Origin: Hemicentrotus pulcherrimus | Lineage: Eukaryota; Echinodermata; Echinoidea; Camarodonta; Strongylocentrotidae | DNA: 64,000 nt | Assembly (NCBI GenBank): GCA_003118195.1 | Contig: BEXV01000365.1 | Coordinates: 58,760 to 122,759, forward strand | Direction: 5' to 3' | Shown: piece by piece, positions 2,960 to 58,299 of the stretch | Numbering within the stretch: the stretch's first letter is position 1 | How the letters are laid out: each line of letters opens with the position of its first letter | Position numbers and translations under genes: made by a program | Notes under the pieces: generated by a model | What the model was told of the DNA's origin: nothing | Databases searched by the model: none | The model's input: only the letters and a program-made list of their open reading frames with translations

Positions 2960-5900
2960 CGATAGAGTGAGAGGGGTAGAAAGAGACATACTAGAAATAG
3001 AGCAATGATGAGAGGGAGAGAGAGAGAGAGAGAGAGATGGAGAGACAAAGGGGGAAGGAGGAAGAGGGGCATGACAGAAACAGACAAACTGACAGAAAGA
3101 CCAACAGACAGATCAAAAATACATGAGATAGAGAATGAGAAAGAAAGATCTAAAGAGTTGGAGAAAGAGAGCTGCAAACTCCCTGTGAAACACCCCTATC
3201 CTACAGTGTGTATATGCTTTTACAAAGATGAGCAAGATAGATATATATTAGCAATACAATGTGATGATACTGTCAGAATGATTACACTACTGGAGATAAA
3301 AACGAATCAATGTGGTGAAAGATAGAATACAAACATTAAATTGAAGAAGAAGACAATGGCAATTATAGATATCTAGAGCAGAATACACATAAATAAATGA
3401 TGAAGCAGCATGAAACATGTTTTTTTTTTTTAATGCTTTCCTACAGGACTGAGCTCGTTGATAACAAGTGCCAATTCCAGTTTCTATGGGAGTCTAAGGT
3501 AGCCTGCAAAGAACAAAGGTATGATGTTTTTTTTAGTAGTTTTGGGTATTTTTTTGCGTTTTTCTTTTTTATCTTCTCATTCTTCTCATCTACAATCTTT
3601 CCCCCACATGTATTTTGTAGGGGTCCACATATAGCAAATTATTTTTCTGTGTAACAAATGTGAAATACAGGAGCAGGGTATATTCTTCATGATTTAATTA
3701 CTTGCAGTTGTCAGTGAATAAGCCTAGATGCATGTACATTGTAAGAGGAAAAAACTATTTACATCTTGAAACAGGGCCCAGGGGGCATTTCACAAAACTT
3801 GTCATCAGTGACAAATGACAGTATTTGTTATAAGCTACTGAAATCCTTGCTTCTGATTGGTTATCAGCAGATTTGTCACTGATTTTATTCATTTGACATT
3901 GAAAAAAGGCTTTGTGATACAGGGCCCAGATGTTGAGATTGTTTCTTAATATGTTCTTGTACCTAGAGTGCCTGTAACATTAGTAGAAAAGAAGATCACA
4001 GACCCTGAGACCAACGTCATCATGGATTTCACTGAGATCATCGACCATGGGTAAGTAACTCCTCCAATACCACAAGAATGTCATCTTGTGAATTCCGATG
4101 ATTATAATTATTGCATTTATATATATCCCGTTCAGTCTAACATTTAAAATAATTCACTTATTTTGCTTTATAATAACGTAAGAAAACTTTCTGTAACGCA
4201 ATATTCTGAAGAATCTCATGTCAAAGTATATGATGTATTATCTATGTAAACTTATTTTGATTCTTTGTACGTTTGTAAAATGTGAGCAAAACAAATTTCC
4301 GATAATGGACAATAAATTGAAATTGAATTGATATAACCTGTTCCCGAGGATAGAATTACGAAGAACTATAGCGGTATGTTTTCAAATGTTTTTTTAAGAA
4401 GTCAAGTGTAGTACAAAAATGCAGGGAGTTTATTCCATAAGCGCAGGGTAACAGGTTGAAAGGGTTTGAAACCAGCCTGTTTTGGGAGTTTAGGAATGAG
4501 CTGATGTACATGAAAAAGAATATGATGCTCTCTCCTGCTCTAAGAATGAGGAGATGTATTGAGGCACTCTGGTTGAGATAGTTTGAAAGGCTAAAACAAG
4601 TATCCAGTATTGAATTTTGGACAATTTTGTTCAGATTTTGATGTTCAGGTTATAATGATTATGCACATCAAATTTGGTTTTACAAGGACTGATATATCAT
4701 TGGACGATGTTTTCAAGGTTAACATTGAGGGAAGGTGGAATTGTGATTCCATCCCTGTCTCACAAAATGTAATTTGTGATACCAGCTTGTCAACTTACTA
4801 CCACTGCAGAATAAAATCTCAATCTCGATAAAACCTGATAATGTGTGCATCGTTGCAAACATGTCAAGGAATGCATTTTCTTTAATCTCCCTGTTTATTT
4901 CTTTTGAAGAACATGGGAAGCACGAGGTGATAACCGCCAAGAGGTCACAGGAGATACATCATCCTACGTCTACTTAATCAACATGAATGACAACCAGGAC
5001 GATGTCCCGGGCGACGTCAGTCACGCATGTCAGGACTCCGCCGTTTGCCAGACCAAAGAGTCGGACCAACAGTTCTTCAGGGAAGTAGGAACAAGGTCCA
5101 GCAGGAAGTTCTTCATCGAAGGTAAGTCTTAGACCAAAGTAGATTGGGATTCTGGATCTAAAGGTTATTTGAAGATAATTGCAGATTTTGTGAATGTTTA
5201 GTATTGGCTAGCAAATATAGTATCCTAGGAACGTAAGACTAAATTAGTTTACAAGCAAGGATGTTCTTTTTTAAAATTTGTAGTATTTAGAGCTTTGAAA
5301 TGTTAAGCTGAATTTTGCCTTTCATAAATTCAACATTAACCAGTAAACCGTTAATGAAGTAGGTCTTCCTTCAGGTTTTTGAATTTTTTAATCAGAAAAA
5401 CATTAAGCTCATACAACATATCTTCTCAGAGATTCTTGAACCAGTGCAGATCACACTAGAATAAATTGATGCATTACTTTTTCCATGTATCTAATGACCG
5501 TCAGCAAATGGATGTGTCTTAAGCAACCTAGATTACTGGAAAGGGTAATCTACATGCAATTTCTCAGAAAATCATTATTTTTTTTATAGATAAAAGATGG
5601 ATGTTGACATGGTTTTATGTCACAAAACACAATAAATTGATGTCTTCTCCTTAAAAGAGAAAATGAAATTTGAAGGCAGCAGTATTTTACAAATTTCTTC
5701 CCATGTTTTTTTAATATGTTAGATGAATTGGTGGAGATGGAAGTCACCAAACCTAAGAGCTGTGGAAAAGATAATACAGAAGACGTGGTGACAACAGTCA
5801 TATTCCAATGTGAAACAGACTCCAAAAATGTAAGTACTGCTCAACCACTCTTATCATTATTTCTATTATCATTGTTATTATTAATATTATCATTTTTGTC

Positions 5901-6431: not shown

Positions 6432-9400
6432 TAGATGATAGAAATAAAAACTGGAAAGTTCAACAGAAACTGTGTCTGAGGAGCTTGTTGGATTTGAGAA
6501 GATTGAAAAGGTTTGAACACAAATATGAATAATGGATATTAGTTGCAAATGCTTTGACAACCTAAGTGCAATGTATCACACAAATTTGCATATTTTTCAA
6601 CTAAAAGTCTGTTTTTAGTTCCCATTTATCTTGTTTATCACAATTTTGTTTTTCAAAATTTGCTGTCTTTCTCAGTAAAAGAGTGCATCATATCCGATGG
6701 GAATTTCCGATTTCCGATGAAAAATCACGTTTATCAGCTAAATAATTGATAAATGCTCACAGAGTTCATTCCTCCCATTAAATTTTTGCAGTTTATTAAA
6801 ATAACAAGAATCAATCTAACCAAATAAGGTAGGCATGTACTTGATTTAAACAAACCTGGTGGTGTTTCACAAAGACTAAGATCGACTGTAAGTTTGAGTT
6901 AACTATGGCAGGCCATTTATGCCACTGTTTCCTCTTACCATTTACTGGCACTGGTTTCTCAAGGGACGTACAAATCATGGTCATAAATCCACAGAATTCA
7001 TATTTTTTGATAATTCATTATTGAAGGAAAATATATTATATAAAGATCATAATGGTGAGAGCAAACAGTGGAATGAATCGTCTGCCATAGTTAAGTCCAA
7101 CTTAATGTTGACTTTGTCTTTGTGAAACACTCCCCTGTACTTTGATTAGTAGTCTTGATGATAATTACACTGAATGTGGTTACTTGGAAGTATATATATT
7201 TTTCTTTGCATTCTTTGTTTATAGAGAGAGAGACAGAAAATTAAAACCACCTTTTAAAGAAAATCTGTCAATGTGTCTCCCTTAATTTTGTGTATTTCAT
7301 ATAATTACAGAAAGTGTATTTTTATGCCTCCGCTACAAAGTAGCCGGAGGCATTATGTTTTCAGGTTGTCCGTACGTCCATACGTCCCGTTCTTGTGATC
7401 ACGTTATCTCAAGAAACGATTGATGGATTCCCGCAAAACTTATGTCATGTATGTATCTCACAGTGCCAATGAACTGACTAGATTTTGAGGTCACGAGGTC
7501 AAAGATCAAAGGTCCCAGGGCTCATTATGTATGTAAAAATGGCTAGTGATCGCGTTATCTCAAGAACCGATTGATGGATTCCTGCCAAACATGGGTCATG
7601 TATGTATCTTACACAGCCCATGAGCTGAATATATTTTGGGGTCATTAGGTCGAAGGTCAAAGGTCATAGGGCTCATTATATATTCAAAAGTAGCTTGTGA
7701 TCCCATTATCTCAAGAACCGATGGAGGGATTCCTGCCAAAGTTGGGTCATGTATGTATCTTACAGAGCCAATGAACTGATTAGATTTTGGGTTCACAAGG
7801 TCAAAGGTCAAAGGTCCCAGGGCTCATTATGTTTGCAAAAATGGCTCGTGATAGCATTATCTCAAGAACCGATTGATGGATTCCTGCCAAACTTAAGTCA
7901 TGTATGTATCTTACACAGCTAATGAACATATTAGATTTACGGGTCATCAGGTTAAAGGTCATGTGGCTCATTATGTATGCCTATAAATAGCTTGTGCATG
8001 CATTATCATTAAAACCCTGAGATGGATTACAATCAAACTTGAATTTAAAAAATTGTTTCTGTTTTGGTTTGTAAAATTGCTGGACATGCTTCATCACAAT
8101 TGTATTGCTCTGGATAATTATCATAAATTTTATTTGTACACTTTTTATTTTCATAGACAGTATTGTGTCTCGTTCCTGAAAACAATACCATGAATTCAAT
8201 ACCCCTCCCGTAACTGCCTTTAATGACATGTACATGTAGCAATAACATTCTTAATAGGTGCTGCTACTTCTAATCTATTTTTTTTTTGTTTTCTGCTTGC
8301 TTTTATTTTGCAGGGCAACCCTGAGTTTTACTACGAATCTAGTAATTGCCAATACTACTTCTTATGGTTGACGTCTGTTGTGTGTACAGAAGGAAAAATG
8401 TAAGTATAATGTTAAAGGGCAATCCATCCCTTGCAATAACTCCATTAGTATTCATATCAATGAAAATACATAAAAATCTGCAGTTTTTAAAGCTTTTAAA
8501 GAGGTGTTGTGGTCGAGTGGATACGTCGCCGGACTGTCGATCACAAGGTCCGAGGTTCGAGTCCCGCCGCTGCACTAATGTCCTTTGGCAAGACATTGAT
8601 TTACATTTGCCACACTCCACCCAGGTGAAGTAAATGGGTACCTGGTAGGAATTTATTCCTTGAAACGCAGCGCGCGTAACAGCTGCACTGCTAAAGCCAG
8701 GGTAATTATGCTGCATTATTGTAGAGCGCTTAGAGACTTCTGACAAAGTAAGTGTTAGGCGCTATATAAGCACTGTAATTATTATTATTATTATAATTAT
8801 CTTGAGCTCTGGTATGGGAATCGTATATCAAGCGAACATGGCTATAATTCATTCTGAATTGTGTATCCTGCAGTATAGATTAATATTGTTTGAACCAGTA
8901 AAATAAAAACAACCTCACAAAAACTTGCTGAAAATCATCTTTAGTAAAAAATCACAACTCACATTTGCAAATAGTGACCTGTGTTAAAGAGAAGGTTGAG
9001 TTCTGGGAAGAGGTGAAAATAATTTGTGAGTGTTATCATTGAATTTTGCAAGTGTGGAAGAACATCAGATAAAAAAATGTTCCCTGAAAAGCATGGCTCT
9101 TCAAATGCCTTCATATTCTAAATATGGCATGTGACATCATAAAAACCGGGACATGTTCAGTTCAGTTCAGTTTTATTTTTCATTTCCAACAGAACAGTAA
9201 TTTTGACAAGAAATCAGATATACAATTCAACATTCAATATTATAATACATTTGACATGATCTAAAGTTATGAAATAGAGATTGTTCATAAATATCAAGTA
9301 TAATGGTTTTTAAGAGTTTTTTTAAAGATAAACCTGTGGAAATGGAGGGATCTACTGAAAAGCAGAGCCTGTAGAATGTGGATCCCTCAAAATAATGACA

Positions 9401-19796: not shown

Positions 19797-22500
19797 AAGC
19801 TGGGTTTTTATTTAGGCCTCATTTCATCTCTAGAAAGTGTCCATGACTCCTAATTATTCAAACTATGTAATTGCAGATAATTTCATAAAATGTAGAAAAT
19901 GACCCTTTTTCTAAAGATTGGCAAGGCCCAGTCGTTTTGGGCCAACAATTATGAATTTTCAAAAAAGGCCTATAATCAAATATTTTCATCTGTAGAATGT
20001 GTCTGTGACCTCTGTCTAAACTATATAATTGCTTATAATTTCATTAAATGTAGAAAATGCCCCTTTATTGACAAAACTGGCAAGGGGGTTACCCCATCAT
20101 TTTTGGCCAAAAATTATGATTTTTTTTTTTAAGAAGGCATATATTCATATATGTTCATCTCTAGAAGGTGTCTATGGCCCCTATTTGTCTAAACTATAAA
20201 ATTGCAGATAATTTCATGAAATGTAGAAAATGCCCCTTTTTGAAAAAAATGGCAAAGGGGTAAGCCCCTTGTTTTTCGCCACAAATTATGAATTTTATTT
20301 TTTTTTGAAAACCTATATATTCATATGCCTTCATCTCTAGAAGGTGTCTTGACCCCTGTTTATTAAAACTATGTTATTGCAGATAATTTCATGAAATGTT
20401 GAAAATGCCTCTTTTTGACAAAAATGGCAAGGGGCTATCCCCTCGTTTTTCGCCAAAAATTATGAATTTTCAAAAAGACTATATTCAAATGTTGTCATCT
20501 CTAGAAGGTGTCTACGGCCCCTATTTAGTCAAACTATGTAATTGCAGATAATTTCATGAAATGTAGGAAATGCCCCTTTTTGACAAAAATGGCCACTATT
20601 TTTTCCCCGAAATTATGAATAAAAAAAACAACCTATATTCATATGTTTTCATCTCTAGAAGATATCTATGACCCCTGTTCAAACTGTGTTATTGCAGATA
20701 ATTTCATGATATGCAAATGCCCCTTTTTGACAAAAATGGCAAGGGGTTAGCCCCTCGTTTTTCGCCAAAAATTAAGCATTTTCAAAAAAGCATATATTCG
20801 CATGTATTCATCTCTATAAAGGGTCATTCAAACTATGTTATTGCAGATAATTTGCCCCTTTTTGACAAAAATGACCACTATTTTTTCCCCGAAATTATGA
20901 ATAAAAAAACAACAACCTATATTCATATGTTTTCATCTCTAGAAGGTGTCTATGACCCCTGTTCATTCAAACTATGTAATTGCAGATAATTTCATGAAAT
21001 GTAGGAAATGCCCCTTTTTGACAAAAATGGCCACTATTTTTTCCCCGAAATTATGAATTAAAAAAAAACCTATATTCATATGTTTTCATCTCTAGAAGGT
21101 GTCTATGACCCCTGTTTGTTCAAACTGTGTTATTGCAGATAATTTCATGATATGCAAATGCCCCTTTTTGATAAAAATGGCAAGGGGTTAGCCCCTCGTT
21201 TTTCGCCAAAAATTATGAATTTTCAAAAAGACTATATTCAAATGTATTCATCTCTATAAAGGGTTAAGGGTCATTCAAACTATGCTATTGCAGATAATTT
21301 CATGAAATGTTGATAATGCCTCTTTTTGACAAAAATGGCAAGGGGCTATCCCCTCGTTTTTCGCCAAAAATTATGAATTTTCAAAAAGACTACATTCAAA
21401 TGTTGTCATCTCTAGAAGGTGTCTACGGCCCCTATTTAGTCAAACTATGTAATTGCAGATAATTTCATGAAATGTAGGAAATGCCCCTTTTTGACAAAAA
21501 TGGCCACTATTTTTTCCCCGACATTTTGAATTAAAAAAAAAAAAAAAAACCTATATTCATATGTTTTCATCTCTAGACGGTGTCTATGACCCCTGTTTGT
21601 TCAAACTGTGTTATTGCAAATAATTTCATGATATGCAAATGCCCCTTTTTGACAAAAATTAAGAATTTTCAAAAAAGCATATATTCACATGTATTCATCT
21701 CTATAAAGGGTCATTCAAACTATGTTATTGCAGATAATTTCATGAAATGTTGAAAATGCCCATTTTGGACAAAAATGGCAAGGGGTAGCCCCTCGTTTTT
21801 CGCCAAAAATTATGAATTTTCAAAAAGGCCTATAAACATACATTTTTATCTCTAGAAGGTGTCTTTGACCCCTGTTTGTTCGAACTATGCAATTGTATAT
21901 AATGTCATGCAAATTAGAAAATATCCCATTTTGACAAAAATGGCAATCGGTTAGTCTACCTTTTGGGCCAAAATTTATGTTTTTTTATGAAAAGGACTAT
22001 ATTCATATATTTTCATCTCTAGAAGGTGTCTGTGACCTCTGTTAATTCAAACTATGTAACTAAAGATAACTTCATGAAAATGTAGAAAATGCCCCGTTTT
22101 GGACAAAAATGGCAAGGGGTTAGTCTCTCTTTTTCTGCCAAAAAATTATGAATTTTCAAAAAAGCATATATTCATGTTTTCATCTCTATAAGGAGTCTTT
22201 TGACCCCTGTTTAATCAAACTATGTTTTTGCAGATAATTTCATGAAATGTAGAAGTTGCCCCTATTGACAAAAATGGCTAGGGGTTATTTAGCCCATTGT
22301 TTTTAGCCACAAATTATGAATTTTCAAAAAGACTTATATATTCATATCTTTTCATCTCTAGAAGTTGTCTTTGGCCCCTATTTTGTCAATCTATGTAATT
22401 GCAGATGAATTCACGAAAGGTAGAAAAAATGTCCCGTTTTAGGGAGCCTTTTTTATATCGTTTTATCTGTAGGTGTCCATGACCCCTTTTCATTCAAATA
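19797..22500 (+). repeat. Satellite array, about 155-170-bp monomers, with higher-order structure
   Basis: About 18 degenerate copies share TCTCTAGAAGGTGTCT, TTGCAGATAATTTCATGAAA, GCCCCTTTTTGACAAAAATG and CGCCAAAAATTATGAATTTT. Spacing of the CTCTAGAAGG anchor is mostly 125-177 bp. From about 20.5 to 21.75 kb, three variant monomers recur as a unit of about 440-480 bp. Open frames here are by-products of the repeat. Confidence 0.95.
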
Positions 22501-25500: not shown

Positions 25501-27368
25501 CGATAGTTCAATCAATTTTAAAGGCAGCACATAAATGTAACACAACTCAATATGAGAGGTGTTTTTTTTTTATTATCAATACAAACTAATGATAGAATTC
25601 GATCTTATACAATAACCATTATGCTCCAATATAAAAAAAAGTTGACTGTAATTTCTTTTCATGAAATATTCTTAAATTTAGAATATAAATGAAATATAGA
25701 GGAAAATGTTTAATCATTAACATATTCATATTTCATATCAATTAGATAAAACAACAGTTTTTATTTCATTTTCCCCTCTCAATTAAGAGTTGTTTTTTGT
25801 GTTGAAACACAGGGAAGCAGCATCACGTTTGAAACAATGTAAATTTACCGCAAAAGTGACAATCATAGATTACGTATAAATATGTACTACTGCAGCAAAA
25901 ATACAATACTTGTAATTTTTCGTTAACTAACTGTTATTCTTAGCTGAGCGGATAACCAAATGTAGCCCAATTACCCACAAATTTGTCACCTTCTAGAACG
26001 GCCTCTACCAAATTGATAGAGGTGCTCCATACTTAAAAGATAACTATTCCCCGGAATATTTAATATTCTAACTGAATAATTATTACATAACGCATAGTTC
26101 GTAATTAAGATGACATGACTGTCAAGCACACGTATGCAGTATCTGTCTCAGTAGATTTTAGTAATTTATACAAATGGCTTCACTGCACGTCGAGTAGCGC
26201 AACAGATCTTTAAAATGTCACCTTAGACTCATTACGCTGACAGTGACATATGAAGCTTGTAAAAAAAAAATTCGTGTAAACTCATTTGTATTTAAGGTAC
26301 ATTAAATTTTCTCAAGTTGATTGATTAATTGATTGATTATTTTTTTGAAGAAATAACCAGCATACAAAAAATACGTAAAACACACCCAAACGGAGGGTGA
26401 ATACTGCTTTTTTACCCCTACAAAAAAAAAAAGTTTCCCTTAGGTGCCAAAATATGGGTCGGAAGGTCGGAAATCTTTTCCCCTTTGGGACTAATATTCC
26501 TCAGTTTTTAATGCTTTGATATTTTTTTTTCACTAAAAAAAACGGTAAAAAAGGAAAAATCTTTGCTTTCAAAGCCGACCGTAGATTTCTAGATTTTAGG
26601 GTCGTCGCAAAGGGCAATACAACATCTTTTTTTTTTAGGCCTTATCGTTTTGATAATTTGTTAAGTTTTTAATTAGATAATAAACCGTTTCAATTTACTT
26701 TGAGGTAAGTAGGTTGTATAGTCTTTGGAAAAATGCCATTCATTTAAAAAAAGATCTGTTTTATATCAAATGTTATGAGTTGTTTAGCAAGTGCTATGGC
26801 ATATTTGGACAAGGTGATATGTGCGTTTTAAAAGATTATAGTTTTTAAACTTTCAAACTTGATTTTGTGGATAATTTCGTATTTACACAATTATATAAAG
26901 ATCCCTTTGTGTAAGTGTTACTTCCAAGTTTCTATAAAATTCTTTACATCTTTTTTTAATTTCTAAGAAGAAAAACATGCGACCTAGGAGTCTTATGAAC
27001 ACTTAAAGGTTACGAAAGAAAACGTTTGTTAAAGACAAATTAAATATTCATAACAAATTCATCCATCGTATGACTGGCATGTTGTAATGCGTATATGAGG
27101 TAGATATTGGTTTACAATAATATAAACACAAACTAACGAGTTATGGTTATTCAATATAACCCTGTCAGAAGGCCGATCATAATTTACCCCATGTGGAAAT
27201 AACACAAGGGAAACGCTCTTGGCGGTCTCGCCTGCATTACGCAATTCGAATATCCTCTGAATATAGTCAGAATTTTGAAGATATTGACTACTAATCATTA
27301 GAAGAATTATTTACTATAATTTGTACCAAGATTGATAGCTTTAATGAAATATGAATAACTAAAATTAT
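22501..27368. other. Gene-free intergenic sequence downstream of lin-28
   Basis: No gene is recognised. A GC-richer block at about 24440-24790 stands out from AT-rich flanks and may be an old repeat. Two perfect let-7 seed octamers (CTACCTCA on the - strand) occur at 27096-27103 and 25259-25266. They lie beyond the first canonical lin-28 poly(A) signal, so they matter only if a longer 3' UTR exists. Confidence 0.5.
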
Positions 27369-27374
27369 TTTATT
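27369..27374 (-). terminator. lin-28: Candidate lin-28 poly(A) signal
   Basis: AATAAA on the - strand. No AATAAA or ATTAAA was found on that strand between the lin-28 stop (30468) and this position; only weak TATAAA variants occur near 28570 and 28750. It would give a 3' UTR of about 3.1 kb. Confidence 0.45.
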
Positions 27375-27439
27375 AATTCTCATATTAAGTTGTAATTTTT
27401 TTTTTATTTTTTATCCAAGTCAACTGACCTAAATGACCT

Positions 27440-27780
27440 TTACTTTGCTACCGTGATACTTGATAACCCTTTGGTACAAGTTTCATGGAATTTAAAGAAA
27501 CACACTTGGAAATCTTGATGTTGATGCAACAACAAGTCTAAGTTTGTTGACCTGAAATGACCATTGACCTTAACTTAGTGACCTGTAATTCTACTCACAT
27601 GATTGGGGAACCCTTTGGTCCAAGTTTCATTGAATAAGGACTTATACTTTCAAAATTATACTAAATATTCAAAAACTTTACCTTAGGTTAAGTTTTCGAT
27701 GGTGCCGCTGCCGCCGCCGCCGTCACCGGAAAAAAACGGCGGCTATGTCTCACTTTTGCTACGCAGGCGAGACAATAAAA
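27440..27780. repeat. Dispersed repeat with a CCGCCG core
   Basis: A block of the type TAAATGACCTTTACTTTG ... GCCGCTGCCGCCGCCGCC ... CTACGCAGGCGAGACAATAA resembles a repeat I recall from several invertebrate deuterostome genomes. If the lin-28 3' UTR runs to 27369, this repeat is inside it in antisense orientation. Confidence 0.5.
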
Positions 27781-28325
27781 TAGAATAAGTCTTACGGAGA
27801 GCGTTTAAAATAGAGGCGTGGGTTATAATTTTGATCAGAGCAAGAATGCACTTTGTGCAAGTCAGTCAGCAAAGATACGTTGAAACAACACGGAACGTTA
27901 GGAGAACATTAAGATAACATAAGATAACATTGCGGAAAACGCGATTAGTCCTTTGTAAATGTCACATAATTTGACACATGTTGACATACCACGGAAAGTT
28001 ATATCATTTACTTTGGAGATCTGTGGATGAAGTTGTTTTGCATGAAGATTTTGCATTCTGGGAAAACCCATCGAAAGACAAAAAGTAACAATACAACTTG
28101 CGATGCTGATGTAGCAAAGCGAATGACCCGGCTATATTTTGCCACACTCGAACCTACAAGTCTTCGCTACCGAATATGTGTGTTGTTCGTACTTTTAAGG
28201 CTCACAAGCTAAAGACACACAAACATACACATACACACAGCTTATGTGTCCAAGGAATAATGACATATAGAGTATTTCGATTCACGTTTATCATAAAGCA
28301 AACACTTGGTAGAATAATCTATACC

Positions 28326-28333
28326 GAGGTAGT
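28326..28333 (-). promoter_or_regulatory. Candidate let-7 seed site in lin-28 3' UTR
   Basis: ACTACCTC on the - strand pairs with let-7 positions 2-9. There is no A opposite position 1 and no clear 3' supplementary pairing. On its own a match of this length is not significant; its position 2.1 kb into the presumed lin-28 3' UTR gives it weight. Confidence 0.4.
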
Positions 28334-29263
28334 CATCTCCCAAATTGGAATGGGAGTATACCATTCCGTTTTGCACGTGATATCGGACAAATGTCAGATG
28401 CCCGTAAATGTCTCCACGTGTTAAAATTCATCTCATCGTTCCTACTACAAAATATAAAGTAAGAGTATATGCTCATACAACTGAAAATTCCTTTGGTTCA
28501 GCATATTCACAATTTTTTTTTCTTCAAAGGCACGTACGGAAGTCAACATTTCACCAATATGTTACACATTTATACTACACTTAACTGAATGCATAACCAT
28601 CGTTAACGATGGTACGACTAAACCGGTTTTGCTTCTTCAACGCCAAATGCCTGTTGCACACAAAGAGTTATTTTGATTGCGTTATTTCGTTTGCAATCAA
28701 TCTTATGAAAGCGATTGGCGCACAGTTTTTTTTTCATTTCGCATTCACTTTTTATAAGATGTCACTTATGGTGCGTCAAACACCAGTAAGTCACCGACAG
28801 CGACCCAATATAAATGACACCTCGTGCACGCCGCCTATCATAGTGGCACCAGAAAACTTGTCAACAGTTTCCAGCAGCATTACTAAACTCTATGGCCCTT
28901 GAAAGTCAAATGTGAAACCCGTCACTACCGGAAAGAAGTCGCATATCTCAGAACGAGCATTGAATAAACATCTCAAGTCACGCCCGGTGCATTGTGGAAC
29001 GACACACTTTCACTATAACTTAACGTACAAGCGAATCACATACAAGGAAATGGTTAAGGCCTCATGGATATTCATGATTGCAGTACTCGCTATAGCACCA
29101 GCACGTGATCTGCACGTGGTAAAAACTGAATAACACCTGAGTGAGTGACGTCATAATAGCAAAGTTTCCACAAAGCAGCTAGAGAAACACCATGTTCATC
29201 GTCCACATAAAGACTTTACAGTCACAAAGTAAGCCATTATATACACTGAATTAAATCTTAAAG

Positions 29264-29279
29264 CCCTGAGACTGTAACT
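29264..29279 (-). promoter_or_regulatory. Candidate miR-125 / lin-4 target site in lin-28 3' UTR
   Basis: The mRNA-sense sequence AGTTACAGTCTCAGGG pairs with miR-125 positions 2-10 and 13-17, with two mismatches at positions 11-12. That is 14 pairs in the usual seed plus 3'-supplementary geometry. lin-4/miR-125 control of lin-28 through its 3' UTR is known in nematodes and vertebrates. The site begins 1189 nt after the stop codon. Confidence 0.65.
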
Positions 29280-29366
29280 ATATAAACACCACCTTCCTTA
29301 AACCAATTGCCATACCAATGCTCCCTAGAAAATGGATGAATCTTTCAATGTGATATGTGAAAACCT

Positions 29367-29373
29367 TGAGGTA
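29367..29373 (-). promoter_or_regulatory. Candidate let-7 site (7mer-A1) in lin-28 3' UTR
   Basis: TACCTCA on the - strand pairs with let-7 positions 2-7 and has the A opposite position 1. A CAACCTA match to let-7 positions 9-15 (29390-29396) lies on the 5' side in the mRNA. It is separated by a 16-nt target bulge, longer than usual. Confidence 0.35.
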
Positions 29374-29823
29374 TAACTTTAAAAGGGAATAGGTTGAGAT
29401 TGGTCCAAAGTGAATAGACAAGATATTGAGATGCTCTGTAGTTTGCAGATTCATATAATGATTTCCGATGGAGCAAATCACAAATCTTGGGTAGGAATTC
29501 TTCCCATCAAAAACTGTTCTTAACAGGCAATGGAGATACAGAAGGGACAATGTTAAAAACAAGTGTTTTCATAACATCTAATCCTTAAAAATAAAAGGTC
29601 AAAAGCCTTTGGAATGTCTTTACAATAATGGCAAAGGACATATGGACATATCTCTCTTCTTGTGGTGTATTGGGTACATATAAACTGGAATGAGACGATT
29701 GCAAAGAATTTTTTTAGAGCAATCAAACAATAATATGACGTCTGTGTGACCAAAATGAAGTATGGCTTAAACTGGGTTCACTAATTCAAATAAGTCCATT
29801 GCTTCATACCACAGGGCCGATCA

Positions 29824-30020
29824 CTGTGAACATGACTGACAAAGACAGCGGACAAAATATACAGTTCCTCAGGTAGACAAAGGAACATCCCTTCACTGCT
29901 ATTATGTAAAAATGTGTAGAACAGGTGTCACATGCATAGTCACCTTTTTACATAATAGCAGTGAAGGGATGTTCCTTTGTCTACCTGAGGAATTGTATAT
30001 TTTGTCCGTCATGTTCATAG
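29824..30020 (-). repeat. Near-perfect long hairpin within presumed lin-28 3' UTR
   Basis: The arms 29850-29912 and 29945-30007 are 63 nt each and match in inverted orientation at 62 of 63 positions, around a 32-nt loop. Outside the stem, a further 13-nt pair (29824-29836 / 30008-30020, 12 of 13) continues the symmetry after a 13-nt insertion in the left arm. This is far less decayed than the other foldback elements in the window. It could be a recent MITE, an inverted duplication or a structured RNA. Confidence 0.85.
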
Positions 30021-30467
30021 TGGATGTAATCAAGCTAATGAATAGAATGGTAGCCAAGCTAACTATCAGTCTATGGTTAGGATTTTATATCAAGTTCATT
30101 TCTAAAGAGAGAATATCTTCTTTTTTTCTCCACCTGCTTAAGGAACATTGGTATGCCTTTGGACCTATCCATAAACTGTTTCATCAAGATCCACACGCTG
30201 ATAGCTGTGTGCTCGACTGTACAATTATCTATACATACATGGCATAGTAAGATCTTGCCAAAGAGTTCTACAGAGGAGATATTCCTATTTCAAATCAGAA
30301 TTGTCTGTCTTTGTCATAATCTGTAAATAAACATTCTGCATAAAAAAAGTCATACTCAGAAGAGCAAACTATCCTTCTCTTCCCACTTGTGCTTCTTATA
30401 TGGTGGAAATACAACCAAAAACTAAATCTATACGAAGTACTTTGAAGGTGGTGCATCTTGGCCTTGG

Positions 30468-30723
30468 TTAGGTCTTTCCTTCACCACCTTCTGGATCGCT
30501 TTTGCCATCCTCTTCGGCTTTGCTGCTGGCTGATGCCTCTTCTGTCGTTGTTTTGGGGCTCTCTTCACCCGAACCACTGCCGTTGCTGCCGTTTCCCTGA
30601 GAAGTTTTGTTTGGGCAGTCTGCCCAGAGGTGGTCCTCCGCGTGGCATGCATAGCACCGTTTAGGTAGAGGGGGCTCTGGACAGTCTTTGGCATGGTGTC
30701 CTGAATTGCCACAGTTAAAGCAC
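30468..30723 (-). CDS. lin-28: lin-28 last coding exon (CCHC zinc knuckles and C-terminus)
   Basis: The acceptor is TGTACACAG|G. The single leading G completes an arginine codon begun by the previous exon (CG|G). Knuckle 1 is C-x2-C-x4-H-x4-C ([14 protein letters not shown]) and knuckle 2 is [14 protein letters not shown], eight residues apart. These bind the GGAG-type motif in let-7 precursors in known LIN28 proteins. The C-terminal tail of about 48 residues is rich in Ser, Gly and Glu. The stop is TAA at 30470-30468. Confidence 0.96.
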
Positions 30724-33700
30724 CTGTGTACAGGAATGGATAGGTATGTACAGTTTATTAAAAACATTAGGAAATATGTCCAATGTGGGAACCCTGGGCC
30801 CCGTCTTATAAAGAGTTGATATTTCTATTTGCGATTGATATCCATCGCAACTCTGTACATAGGAGATAGGGGACTGCAAACTTGATTTGGATCAATCATA
30901 ACTCTTTATAAGACTGGGCCCAGGAGTACTTTCAAAGCCAACAACGAAACCAACATACTGTCACCACACTTTTCAAATTTGATGGTCTGGTCAATGCTAC
31001 CACCATATATCTCAACATGTCATTTGGTCATGAATTGTCGATATTATGAGTGGCACAATCGCAGTGGAACAAGCGTTTCGAGAATTTAATCTGACCCCGT
31101 TTTTGCCATGCCGAAGTACATCTGAAAGTCCTATCTTGTTGTGATTCAAAGGAAATCCAACACAAAACCTCAAAATGCAATGTCTTCTAAGTTTGGTAAA
31201 GGTTAGTTGAGCTGTACAATGTATTGGTGTGTGTAATTGGGTTTCTACCAATGTGTACTTCTCCAATATGATTATGTTGGTCTGGGGACCGACCGACCGA
31301 CCTTTAACGTCACCATCCAAAAGACGTGACTCTGTTTTTTACAGTCTTTGATCTTTATGGTTCTTGTGCTTACCGGTTTGCTGTTCTTCTGTACTTGGGT
31401 CTTAACCTTCGTTTACTCCCTTTGCAGTCTCCTCCGTCCAAGCCTGTCACAGTGGTCGCCTCCCTTCCCTTATCTGAAAACTGAAACCTGTACTCGACTT
31501 CTTCGTTCGTGTCAAGACTCCTGTACCCAGTCATTTTAATGACCCTCTGCAAGTTATTGAGAAAAAACAAAGAGTAAAAATGAAACTGGTTACACTATAT
31601 AAAATAACAAATAACACTTTTAAAAGAACATGAGAATAGCGGTTCTTCGGCCATTTGGACAGATGAAAAGTTTGTACGTAGTCGAGATGTATCAAATAAA
31701 TCTACTAGTTGGACGGAGTAGTAGACTCAGAAAACAAAAATGTCTAGCAGCCTAAGCCTAATTCTCGCTATGAAAGCAGAAGCTTTTCATTATTTCACTT
31801 TACACTAGATACATCAATTTGTATCGAATAATGGAGAAATATACTTTTCTATCACTTCTCCATTTATGCTGCATGGCTCTTAAAGGGTTCAAATATTTTT
31901 TCCCCTATCCACTTTCCTCTTTCTTTATCTCCCCTCTCTTTCCTTTACTTATTTGTTTCTCTATCTCTCCATCTCTCCATCTCTCTCTTCGCCTTGCTCT
32001 CCTTATCTATCTTGCTCTCACTTTTATCTCTGCATCTCAAGCAAGGAACAGAGTTAAATATTCGATAGATCTATGTGTGCCCATAACCGGGTGTTGTTGA
32101 CCAATCGTGACCCAGAAGAGTGTCAGGAAGTAACCTTTGACCTTCATTATTGACGTTATGCATTGTCAAGTTGATTCGGATTGCAGATTGCCAAGATAAT
32201 AGTCTTAGCCCTTCAGAACTTTGCTCCAATTTTCAAGAGGATTCATTTAAATAGAGTAATTACTTAAAAATAGACTAGAACATCATGCAACAATTGTAGG
32301 TTGTGTAAAAAGGAGTTCCATAACAGCTATACAGTGACAGAATTGTATTCCTAAATAAATTGACTTGAAGCTATATTCCAAAAGGCTGGGCAGGTAGAAA
32401 ATCAGGTTTAAAAAACAGGTTTTCACACTCCCATTATATGAGCTAAATAGCGTGGGTCAAGACCGGTAAGTATTCTTATTGAAGTAGATTAAGAGAATGA
32501 TCTATATTATTGCGATTTCATGAATATGAGATGATGACAAGTATCTGCAATTTGGAAACGCTAATCTCTTCATCATCTCGACACAGTTACGGCTAAAATA
32601 GTCTCACATTTTCGAGATGAATCATTTCACAGACACCTTTATTCTGAGTTACTTTCATCATCCTATGCTGCTTTCCTGGATGTAGATGTATTTTATGACA
32701 AAGTCACCTTCTCATATTTTCATCATTTCGCATGACCGGGATTGAATTCTCTCATCTACATAATTTGATAATATCAAACATTAATAAGTTGGCTCTATTC
32801 AGTGGCATGACGAATTCGATCACCGTAAATTTTTCTTCTGTTCCATCCTATATGAAATAACGTAGCTACGTACGAGATCTTAAAGAGAAGGTTGAGTTCT
32901 AGGAAGAGGTAAAAAAGAAAAAAATTGTGAGCGTTATCATTTACTTTATAATGTGTAATGATTTGATTGTAACACATTGTTATGCCTATATTTATGTATC
33001 AGATTAGACAGTTTGATTTTTGATTTTTTCTATTTTTCTATTTTTTTTAATTTTTTTTTTATTTGTACTATTGTTATCTATCTTTTGGTATTTTTGTTTA
33101 AAATCCAACCTCAAGTCTTGGTTGCAATAAAACAAATGATAATAATAAAACAACTCCCAAAATCGATACCATGGAGGAAAACCATTCTTTACCTCATCTG
33201 ACATTATGTCTCTGAGTCAAGATCCAGACTTAGGCCTACACCTACACCGGACATGGTCTATATCACTACCGGTAATTGCGAGGCACCGAGCCTAAGAATG
33301 GTCTGCTCATAAAAGACTAACACTCTAGTCAGTGTGCGCGTAGCGGTACCGCACGGAAGATCGTGCGGTACAAAGTGTGCGTGTGTATAACATTATGTGT
33401 CTTTTGGAGAAACCAACGCGCGAGAAAATTGTGCTAAGAAGACGTTGAACTGGACGAGGGAGGTGCTGCTGAACATGACCTCTGTACGAACGAGGAGGAA
33501 CGAGGAAAGAAAGAGAATAGGGGTGGGGACAGAGGGTGCCCGCGAACAGAATGGGGAGCGGGAAATACGATATTAAGAATAGACAGAGAAAGCAAAGAGA
33601 GTGGAAAGGGAGAAATATAATAAGAAAGGGGGAGAGGGGGATAAAAGTGATTTGAAAGAGTGGAAGGGGAAAAGCAAACGGGAAAAGCAAAGAGGGAAAG

Positions 33701-57700: not shown

Positions 57701-58299
57701 GTGTGGGTGTGAGAAAGGTGTGTGAGTGCGTGGGTGCGTGTGTGTGTGTGTGTGTGTGTAAGAAAGCGGGAGAGAGATAGAGAATGTGAGAAAGACTTTG
57801 AGTAATGTAGATACAAAGTTGAAAAGCGATGATGTGTAACAGATACCAGTTCAACTGGACTAATGGTCCCCACAGGAGTCACATAGTTAGTGCCAATGAC
57901 CAATGATAGCACCTCACCACCAGCGTCAGGCTTTCCATGTGGTACAGCAAGCAAACGTGTAACCTGGTGTTTCGTATCAAACTGATGAGTGTCACCACCA
58001 TACTTCACCTACCTCTCTGATTACCCGATATTCAATATTGATAATAGCTTTGTTGACAAAACTCATTGCAACATGGCATCTCACCTGATGAACGAATACA
58101 TCCCCTGAGCCATCATCGGGGGTTAAAAACCCGTAGCATTTGGCCAGACTAAACCATTTGCATTTGCCCCTGTAGAGTTCGCCTGGTAGTTGATCTCCCG
58201 CCGCCTTCACAGCGGCAGCCCGCACCTCATCTGCCCGCTCCTGCTCGGCTGCAGTTAGCGTCTCACTCGCCCCACTTTCCTCACTTCCAACTGCTCCTT
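30468..58299 (-). CDS. lin-28: LIN-28 RNA-binding protein (three coding exons; first small exon not found)
   Basis: The exons in order on the - strand are 58299-58085, 31546-31374 and 30723-30468. They have GT/AG borders and consistent phases, and give 213 residues without the N-terminus. LIN28 is a cytoplasmic and nucleolar RNA-binding protein that blocks let-7 maturation and binds mRNAs. The cold-shock domain is complete across exons: [15 protein letters not shown] and DVFVHQ (RNP1/RNP2-like), then MTGYRSL and EYRFQF. A basic linker ([16 protein letters not shown]) leads to two CCHC knuckles, [14 protein letters not shown] and [18 protein letters not shown] followed by paired CCHC knuckles is unique to LIN28. 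Total length is close to vertebrate LIN28A (about 209 residues). Both intron positions (after VFVHQ and before the first knuckle) match vertebrate LIN28 as I recall. No in-frame ATG exists in the 58085-58299 exon. Confidence 0.95.
30793..30924. mobile_element. Small foldback MITE, GGGCCC-ended, in lin-28 intron
   Basis: CCTGGGCCCCGTCTTATAAA at the left and the inverted TTTATAAGACTGGGCCCAGG at the right form TIRs of about 28 bp (30793-30820 / 30895-30924). It lies between the CSD exon and the knuckle exon. Confidence 0.85.
31280..31325. repeat. Fragment of a dispersed repeat shared with 2200-2245
   Basis: GGGGACCGACC, CTTTAACGTCACCATCC and AAAGACGTGACTC occur here and again at about 2204-2245 in an IGF2R intron. 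The copy here has an extra (GACC)n expansion. Confidence 0.8.
31374..31546 (-). CDS. lin-28: lin-28 exon (second half of cold-shock domain and basic linker)
   Basis: The acceptor is AACTTGCAG and the donor is AACCG|GTAAGC. It begins [11 protein letters not shown], which aligns position by position with the SKLHMEGFRSL segment after VFVHQ in vertebrate LIN28. The remaining CSD strands ([20 protein letters not shown]) and a Lys/Arg-rich linker follow. Confidence 0.95.
32880..32955. mobile_element. Solo left end of TTAA MITE family
   Basis: TTAAAGAGAAGGTTGAGTTC followed by an AGGAAGAGGT and GAGCGTTATCATT block matches the left end of the element at 8984 for about 70 bp. No matching right end was found. 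Confidence 0.7.
33450..33860 (+). repeat. Purine-rich low-complexity tract
   Basis: The + strand is strongly purine-rich, with GAAAG, GGGGA and GAGAG words. The long open frames across it on both strands (for example 33325-34023) are Pro/Ser/Phe or Glu/Arg/Lys low complexity and are not convincing genes. Confidence 0.75.
35518..35846 (+). repeat. Two-copy tandem duplication, about 146-177 bp
   Basis: Blocks CGGATACACT, CTACACTACAAAG, AAGGTTTTCCATC, AGCTCGAATAAAA and AAAAGAATCACGCAGTC occur in the same order twice. The offset is 177 bp at the start and 146 bp at the end. Confidence 0.9.
37878..38055. repeat. Dispersed repeat, second copy at 18025-18210
   Basis: The two copies share AGGTCACTG, CAGATGG, CAGCTCTC, GTTAA, TATAGAGGGCGCA and AGTAGCACAGTGGG-like words in the same order and orientation. 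The family was not recognised. Confidence 0.75.
40747..40777. other. Assembly gap (31 N) in a G-run
   Basis: The gap is flanked by GGGGGAAAGGGGG on the left and GGGGGGGGG on the right. A long poly-G tract probably caused the break. Confidence 1.
42051..42432. mobile_element. TTAA-bounded MITE with perfect 18-bp TIRs
   Basis: TTAAAGGTAAAGACCAGT (42051-42068) and its exact inverse ACTGGTCTTTACCTTTAA (42415-42432) bound a 382-bp element. The TTAA ends are the target signature of piggyBac-type transposases. No transposase is encoded. Its right end resembles the element at 8984-9679. Confidence 0.92.
44237..45516. mobile_element. Long-TIR foldback element with a nested MITE
   Basis: The left arm (about 44237-44480) and right arm (about 45275-45516) match in inverted orientation for over 200 bp. 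Shared words include AGCAGAAAAATCAGACAAAC, CTAATAAGAAAGTT, AGTATGTAAAACTAT and GTGACGTCATG. Both ends are TTAA. The outer sequence resembles a TTAAAGGACAAxTCCAC family that I recall as abundant in sea urchins. A second TTAA element sits inside. Confidence 0.9.
44681..45189. mobile_element. Nested TTAA MITE with perfect 23-bp TIRs
   Basis: The 23-bp inverted repeats at 44681-44703 and 45167-45189 are exact (starting TTAAAGGTAATACAAAG). They bound a 509-bp element lying wholly inside the larger foldback element. The TTAAAGGTAA start is shared with the element at 42051. Confidence 0.92.
46156..46560 (-). pseudogene. Unrecognised coding-like fragment
   Basis: A Lys/Arg-rich open frame at 46419-46156 ([20 protein letters not shown] and onward to [15 protein letters not shown]) follows a second one at about 46555-46440 ([20 protein letters not shown]) in another register. 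Residue use looks coding-like. I do not recognise a family. A broken transposon gene or retrocopy is possible. Confidence 0.2.
57035..57058 (+). repeat. (GA)n microsatellite
   Basis: This is a short run of GA dinucleotides in the large lin-28 intron. Confidence 0.9.
57685..57775. repeat. (GT)n-rich microsatellite
   Basis: A GTGTGTGGGTGTGAG-like stretch leads into a clean (GT)n run. It lies about 300 nt from the lin-28 exon, on its downstream intronic side. Confidence 0.9.
58085..58299 (-). CDS. lin-28: lin-28 exon (N-terminal region and first half of cold-shock domain)
   Basis: The acceptor is TTTTTCGATAG and the donor is CATCAG|GTGAGA. It encodes an acidic and Ala-rich N-terminal segment ([17 protein letters not shown]) and then [20 protein letters not shown] and DVFVHQ, the first CSD strands with the aromatic RNA-contact residues. 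It enters in phase 1 (two bases complete a split codon), so an upstream exon carrying the start codon is required. Confidence 0.92.

Follow-up and report, generated by a model that had tools for sequence, protein, structure and literature searches.

A candidate miR-125 target site past the lin-28 stop codon in a sea urchin

The window, by which we mean the whole 64,000-nucleotide stretch of DNA that was analyzed, belongs to a genome assembly of 414 Mb in 4189 contigs and carries lin-28 coding exons on its minus strand. Three minus-strand exons were found by tblastn with a human LIN28A query, and the exon joins were derived from splice sites in the sequence together with the match to the S. purpuratus protein. 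With a short first coding exon that lies outside the window, the coding sequence is complete at 660 bases and 219 aa, with a full open frame. The coding exons are as follows.

L002:4460-4445 (outside the window), minus strand: first coding exon of lin-28, 16 bases
58085..58299, minus strand: lin-28 coding exon 2, covering the first half of the cold-shock domain
31374..31546, minus strand: lin-28 coding exon 3, covering the second half of the cold-shock domain
30468..30723, minus strand: last coding exon of lin-28, with the zinc knuckles, the C-terminal tail and the stop codon TAA at 30470-30468

Over the 213 aa encoded in the window, identity is 96% to S. purpuratus lin-28, 86% to that of Lytechinus, 71% to that of Diadema and 55% to that of the crown-of-thorns sea star. 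Pfam domains were matched for CSD (1.6e-20) and zf-CCHC (6.4e-08), with one stretch passing. By its cold-shock domain and CCHC knuckles the target gene is a true lin-28, which is what the first-pass annotation had called it; the same protein comparison identifies the host, described there as an invertebrate deuterostome, as a sea urchin, one closely related to S. purpuratus though apparently distinct from it.

The window also contains repeats. In the last lin-28 intron, an inverted repeat at 30793-30924 has arms of 25 nt that are 96% complementary, and it looks like a small mobile element. Three adjoining tandem arrays with 158-167-base repeats, whose units are alike, occupy 19822-22427, and a further tandem array (151/302-base) occupies 7392-7961.

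Downstream of the stop codon, two features define the stretch in which complementarity to miR-125 was assessed.

29264..29279, minus strand: miR-125 complementary site of the 7mer-m8 type; seed match at 29270-29264, further pairs at miRNA nt 9-10 and 13-17
27403..27408, minus strand: first canonical AATAAA downstream of the lin-28 stop

Positions 29279-29264 on the minus strand read AGTTACAGTCTCAGGG, and on re-reading the window the site's sequence, strand and coordinates proved to have been recorded correctly. For miR-125 we used UCCCUGAGACCCUAACUUGUGA. Table 1 of PMC4669494 gives it under the name spu-miR-125-5p, which is carried there by sea cucumber reads of the same sequence; the echinoderm miR-125 presupposed by the annotation is thus in print. 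Gapless pairing of AGTTACAGTCTCAGGG with miR-125 bears out the proposed pairs at nt 2-10 and 13-17, and the full pairing vector, 0111111111001111100001, adds a lone pair at nt 22. The seed, nt 2-8, is matched; nt 1 is unpaired, and the site is therefore a 7mer-m8 and not an 8mer. With the stop codon at 30470-30468, the distance of 1189-1204 nt from stop to site that had been given is right. Accessibility, which is a prediction only, counts against the site: compared with the rest of the stretch it is below average, the 16-nt site ranking at the 13th percentile and the seed at the 39th. The flanks of the site are 72% A+T, compared with 62% for the stretch.

Such a match might be fortuitous, in DNA that is rich in A+T and either intergenic or UTR: many known stories can be tested against 64 kb, and whichever fits is retained. 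To assess chance, the 3.06-kb stretch running from the lin-28 stop to the first AATAAA was dinucleotide-shuffled 5000 times. A miR-125 7mer-m8 was present in 327 of the 5000 shuffles, a run at nt 2-10 in 13, and a seed with at least 15 Watson-Crick pairs in 9; five had a seed and a 3' run of 4 or more, and one a seed and a 3' run of 5 or more. A second set of 5000, made from the 1.2 kb preceding the site and biased in that this stretch ends at the site, gave 226, 10, 4, 1 and 1 for the same five classes. In the converse experiment, 3000 scrambles of miR-125 were compared with the real stretch: 466 found a seed, 36 a run of nine, 5 a seed with 15 pairs, and 1 a seed with a 3' run of 5.

By these counts (1 to 9 of 5000 shuffles, 1 to 5 of 3000 scrambled miRNAs) the site is better than chance, as had been claimed, and a fair figure for the chance of an equally good site is about 2e-4 to 2e-3. 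The original estimate of about 1 in 100,000 holds for the exact pattern AGTTANNGTCTCAGGG, for which the Markov-1 expectation is 7.8e-6 per 3.06 kb, or ∼2 copies in 414 Mb, but it overstates the case ∼20- to 180-fold because a single pattern was counted and was picked after being seen.

The background was also sampled in 21 other loci of the genome, which together span 210,000 bases (112,903 N and 97,097 non-N). Four miR-125 seed matches were found there, a rate (over non-N bases only) of ∼0.063 per 3.06 kb that is in line with the shuffles. One of the four had 15 pairs; their 3' runs were all shorter than 4. Within the window itself, the seed match CTCAGGG occurs eight times, all on the minus strand, where 2.58 would be expected on both strands together; eight were reached in 3 of 100 shuffles. 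Among these eight, the site has the most pairs (15; the next has 13) and is the sole one with a 3' run reaching 5 within nt 12-18. Its unbroken run is exceeded by that of the seed match at 4002 (2-11). Four places in the window, the site included, have 15 Watson-Crick pairs to miR-125, so total complementarity without a seed was rejected as a discriminator.

Thirty-two conserved miRNA families were compared on the 3.06-kb stretch by their mature sequences. At least miR-133, miR-137, miR-153 and let-7 deviate somewhat from the urchin forms in Table 1 of PMC4669494, and the result should therefore be read at the level of the family and not of the precise urchin miRNA. miR-125 gave the best seed-plus-3' match, with 15 Watson-Crick pairs (next best, 14) and a 3' run of 5 (next best, 3). 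On the same stretch miR-153 had a longer unbroken seed run (11). By whole-duplex energy, miR-125 ranked third of the 32 families, behind miR-96 and miR-210, both of which are without a 7mer-m8 on the stretch, and its energy was equalled by 10 of 300 scrambled miRNAs. Whole-duplex energy was rejected as the sole discriminator because of this rank.

Taken as an explanation of the site, chance complementarity is favored by the frequency of a lone 7mer-m8 in shuffled stretches, by the three other places in the window that reach 15 pairs (all seedless), and by the one in four seed sites with 15 pairs in ∼97 kb of other non-N sequence. Against this, a seed combined with a 3' run of 5 arose just once in each of the shuffled and scrambled sets, and the miRNA and its target are a pair that was predictable beforehand, being expected from C. 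elegans, human, mouse and chicken (PMC2833159). We regard chance as an unlikely explanation, and one that deserves to be taken seriously.

A different concern is that the site lies past the true 3' end of the lin-28 mRNA, or is included in a minor long isoform only. Four one-base variants of the poly(A) hexamer occur between stop and site (AATGAA 30100, TATAAA 30089, AATATA 30001 and AATACA 29671), and a short UTR might end by use of, for example, TATAAA 30089 or AATACA 29671. Both AATAAA and ATTAAA, however, are absent between the lin-28 stop codon and the site, in agreement with the annotation, and neither occurs before 27408; judging from these signals, the site may fall within the mature 3' UTR, with which their absence is compatible. 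In the interval from stop to site, the listed open frames also look non-coding by eye. We consider a 3' end short of the site improbable.

The presumed 3' UTR contains further features on the minus strand.

29822..30022, minus strand: long nearly perfect hairpin in the presumed lin-28 3' UTR; main arms at 30008-29941 and 29916-29849
29367..29373, minus strand: let-7 7mer-A1, TACCTCA
29238..29245, minus strand: TGTATATA, which we take to be a Pumilio-like motif; it starts 19 nt past the end of the miR-125 seed match

The hairpin lies 446-646 nt after the lin-28 stop, between the stop and the miR-125 site. Its main arms are 68 nt each, identical at 66 of 68 positions and separated by 24 nt, and the RNA has a folding energy of −128.9 kcal/mol (z −18.8), a stability that 0 of 200 shuffles reached. 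Because the arms are nearly identical, a recent inverted duplication or insertion is suggested; a mobile element was also considered. No second copy was found in the window beyond a 13-base match, nor in the 97,097 non-N bases of the 21 other loci. Rfam at gathering thresholds gave no match in the window. At lax thresholds, 10 matches were obtained in 27000-31000, all under gathering scores, of which 7 were to miRNA families; five of these 7 were on the hairpin (mir-246 and MIR169_5, each on both strands, and mir-568 on the plus strand), with a best E of 0.0021, together with one match to DUF2815 RNA. The hairpin was rejected as a known miRNA, since any long hairpin draws such sub-threshold matches, and as a let-7 precursor, its arms being without let-7 sequence by eye.

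CAACCTA, 16 nt upstream of the let-7 7mer-A1, could pair with the 3' half of let-7. Note that a single let-7 7mer-A1 in 3 kb is weak evidence, and that no significance is claimed for it or for TGTATATA. The let-7, miR-125 and Pumilio-like motifs are ∼450 to 580 nt downstream of the hairpin, and one could imagine the presumed 3' UTR as a composite switch in which these motifs are joined by the hairpin as a second control of lin-28, independent of miRNA sites. The hairpin, if transcribed, would be a substrate for double-stranded-RNA enzymes, and the mRNA of a blocker of let-7 maturation would thereby itself come under processing machinery of the same class. We think such an arrangement very unlikely.

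Two of the eight miR-125 seed matches in the window are in lin-28 coding exons, and one of these is a full 8mer.

30594..30601, minus strand: miR-125 8mer CTCAGGGA in the last lin-28 coding exon, TSQGN codons
58103..58109, minus strand: miR-125 7mer-m8 CTCAGGG in the second lin-28 coding exon, DGSGD codons

The protein was held fixed and its codons were replaced by synonymous ones in 20000 versions, drawn either uniformly or according to lin-28's own codon usage. An 8mer was present in 516 (uniform) or 495 (own usage) of 20000, and two or more seeds were present in 104 or 98, respectively. The coding seed at 58109-58103 requires a serine codon; Lytechinus and Diadema have threonine, and the seed is therefore impossible there in that form. 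Coding-region miRNA sites act weakly as a rule. The idea that miR-125 acts on the lin-28 mRNA mainly through the coding 8mer at 30601-30594, with the UTR site playing a minor part, draws on the rarity of such seeds in the recoded versions but runs against this general weakness and against the second coding seed's being impossible in that form in the two relatives, and we consider it highly improbable.

We conclude that 29264..29279 is probably an ordinary miR-125 target site in the 3' UTR of lin-28, one that extends a known miRNA-target pair to echinoderms. The lin-28 3' UTR would then be at least 1.2 kb long, and the mRNA would contain the 16-base site. Mature miR-125 bound by Argonaute would pair with the site through its seed, nt 2-8, with the pairing extended to nt 10 and supplemented at nt 13-17. 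Repression would be expected to follow, and its timing would be that of the miRNA: lin-28 protein output would fall when miR-125 is made, as with lin-4/miR-125 in nematodes and mammals. The further proposal that an ancient heterochronic circuit has been kept in the urchin may hold, and is drawn from one genome. What is presented here is a candidate site for regulation of a well-known kind, most likely at work in an animal branch for which it would be new.

Confirmation of the site would place echinoderms next to nematodes and vertebrates as a branch with documented control of lin-28 by miR-125, and would favor the view that this control arose before bilaterians split. Sea urchins are well suited to such a test, given that their embryos contain let-7 precursors and, by northern blot, no mature let-7, with only 16 mature reads found by sequencing (PMC3247247); precursors without mature let-7 are what would be expected from an active lin-28. 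Both miR-125 and let-7 are said to be localized to the sea-urchin stomach (PMC4880809). The same small-RNA study of sea-urchin and sea-star embryos that describes the let-7 precursors does not mention miR-125 in its main text (PMC3247247). Among the matches listed from open-access literature, in which subscription journals are scarce, none dealt with miR-125 and lin-28 in a sea urchin as judged by titles and the starts of abstracts.

The closest known systems are those of nematodes and mammals. Moss, Lee and Ambros reportedly described, in 1997, the lin-4 site in the 3' UTR of C. elegans lin-28, and the regulation of mammalian lin-28 by miR-125 is said to have been described by Wu and Belasco in 2005. 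The 3' halves of the two miRNAs, miR-125 and lin-4, differ. There are reports of lin-28 control by lin-4/miR-125 in C. elegans, human and mouse, and chicken is predicted to have it too; in the same source let-7 is listed against LIN28B as a conserved pair and miR-125/lin-4 against LIN28 (PMC2833159). The lin-4 site in the C. elegans 3' UTR is cited there and in PMC3916362. With the C. elegans system the urchin locus shares the miRNA family, the target gene and a complementary site past the stop codon; repression in C. elegans has been reported from animal experiments (PMC2833159), whereas the urchin site is known from sequence alone. As for let-7/LIN28 regulation, the urchin let-7 7mer-A1 lies ∼100 nt from the miR-125 site. 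With the mammalian system, reported for human and mouse (PMC2833159), the urchin shares both the miRNA and the orthologous target.
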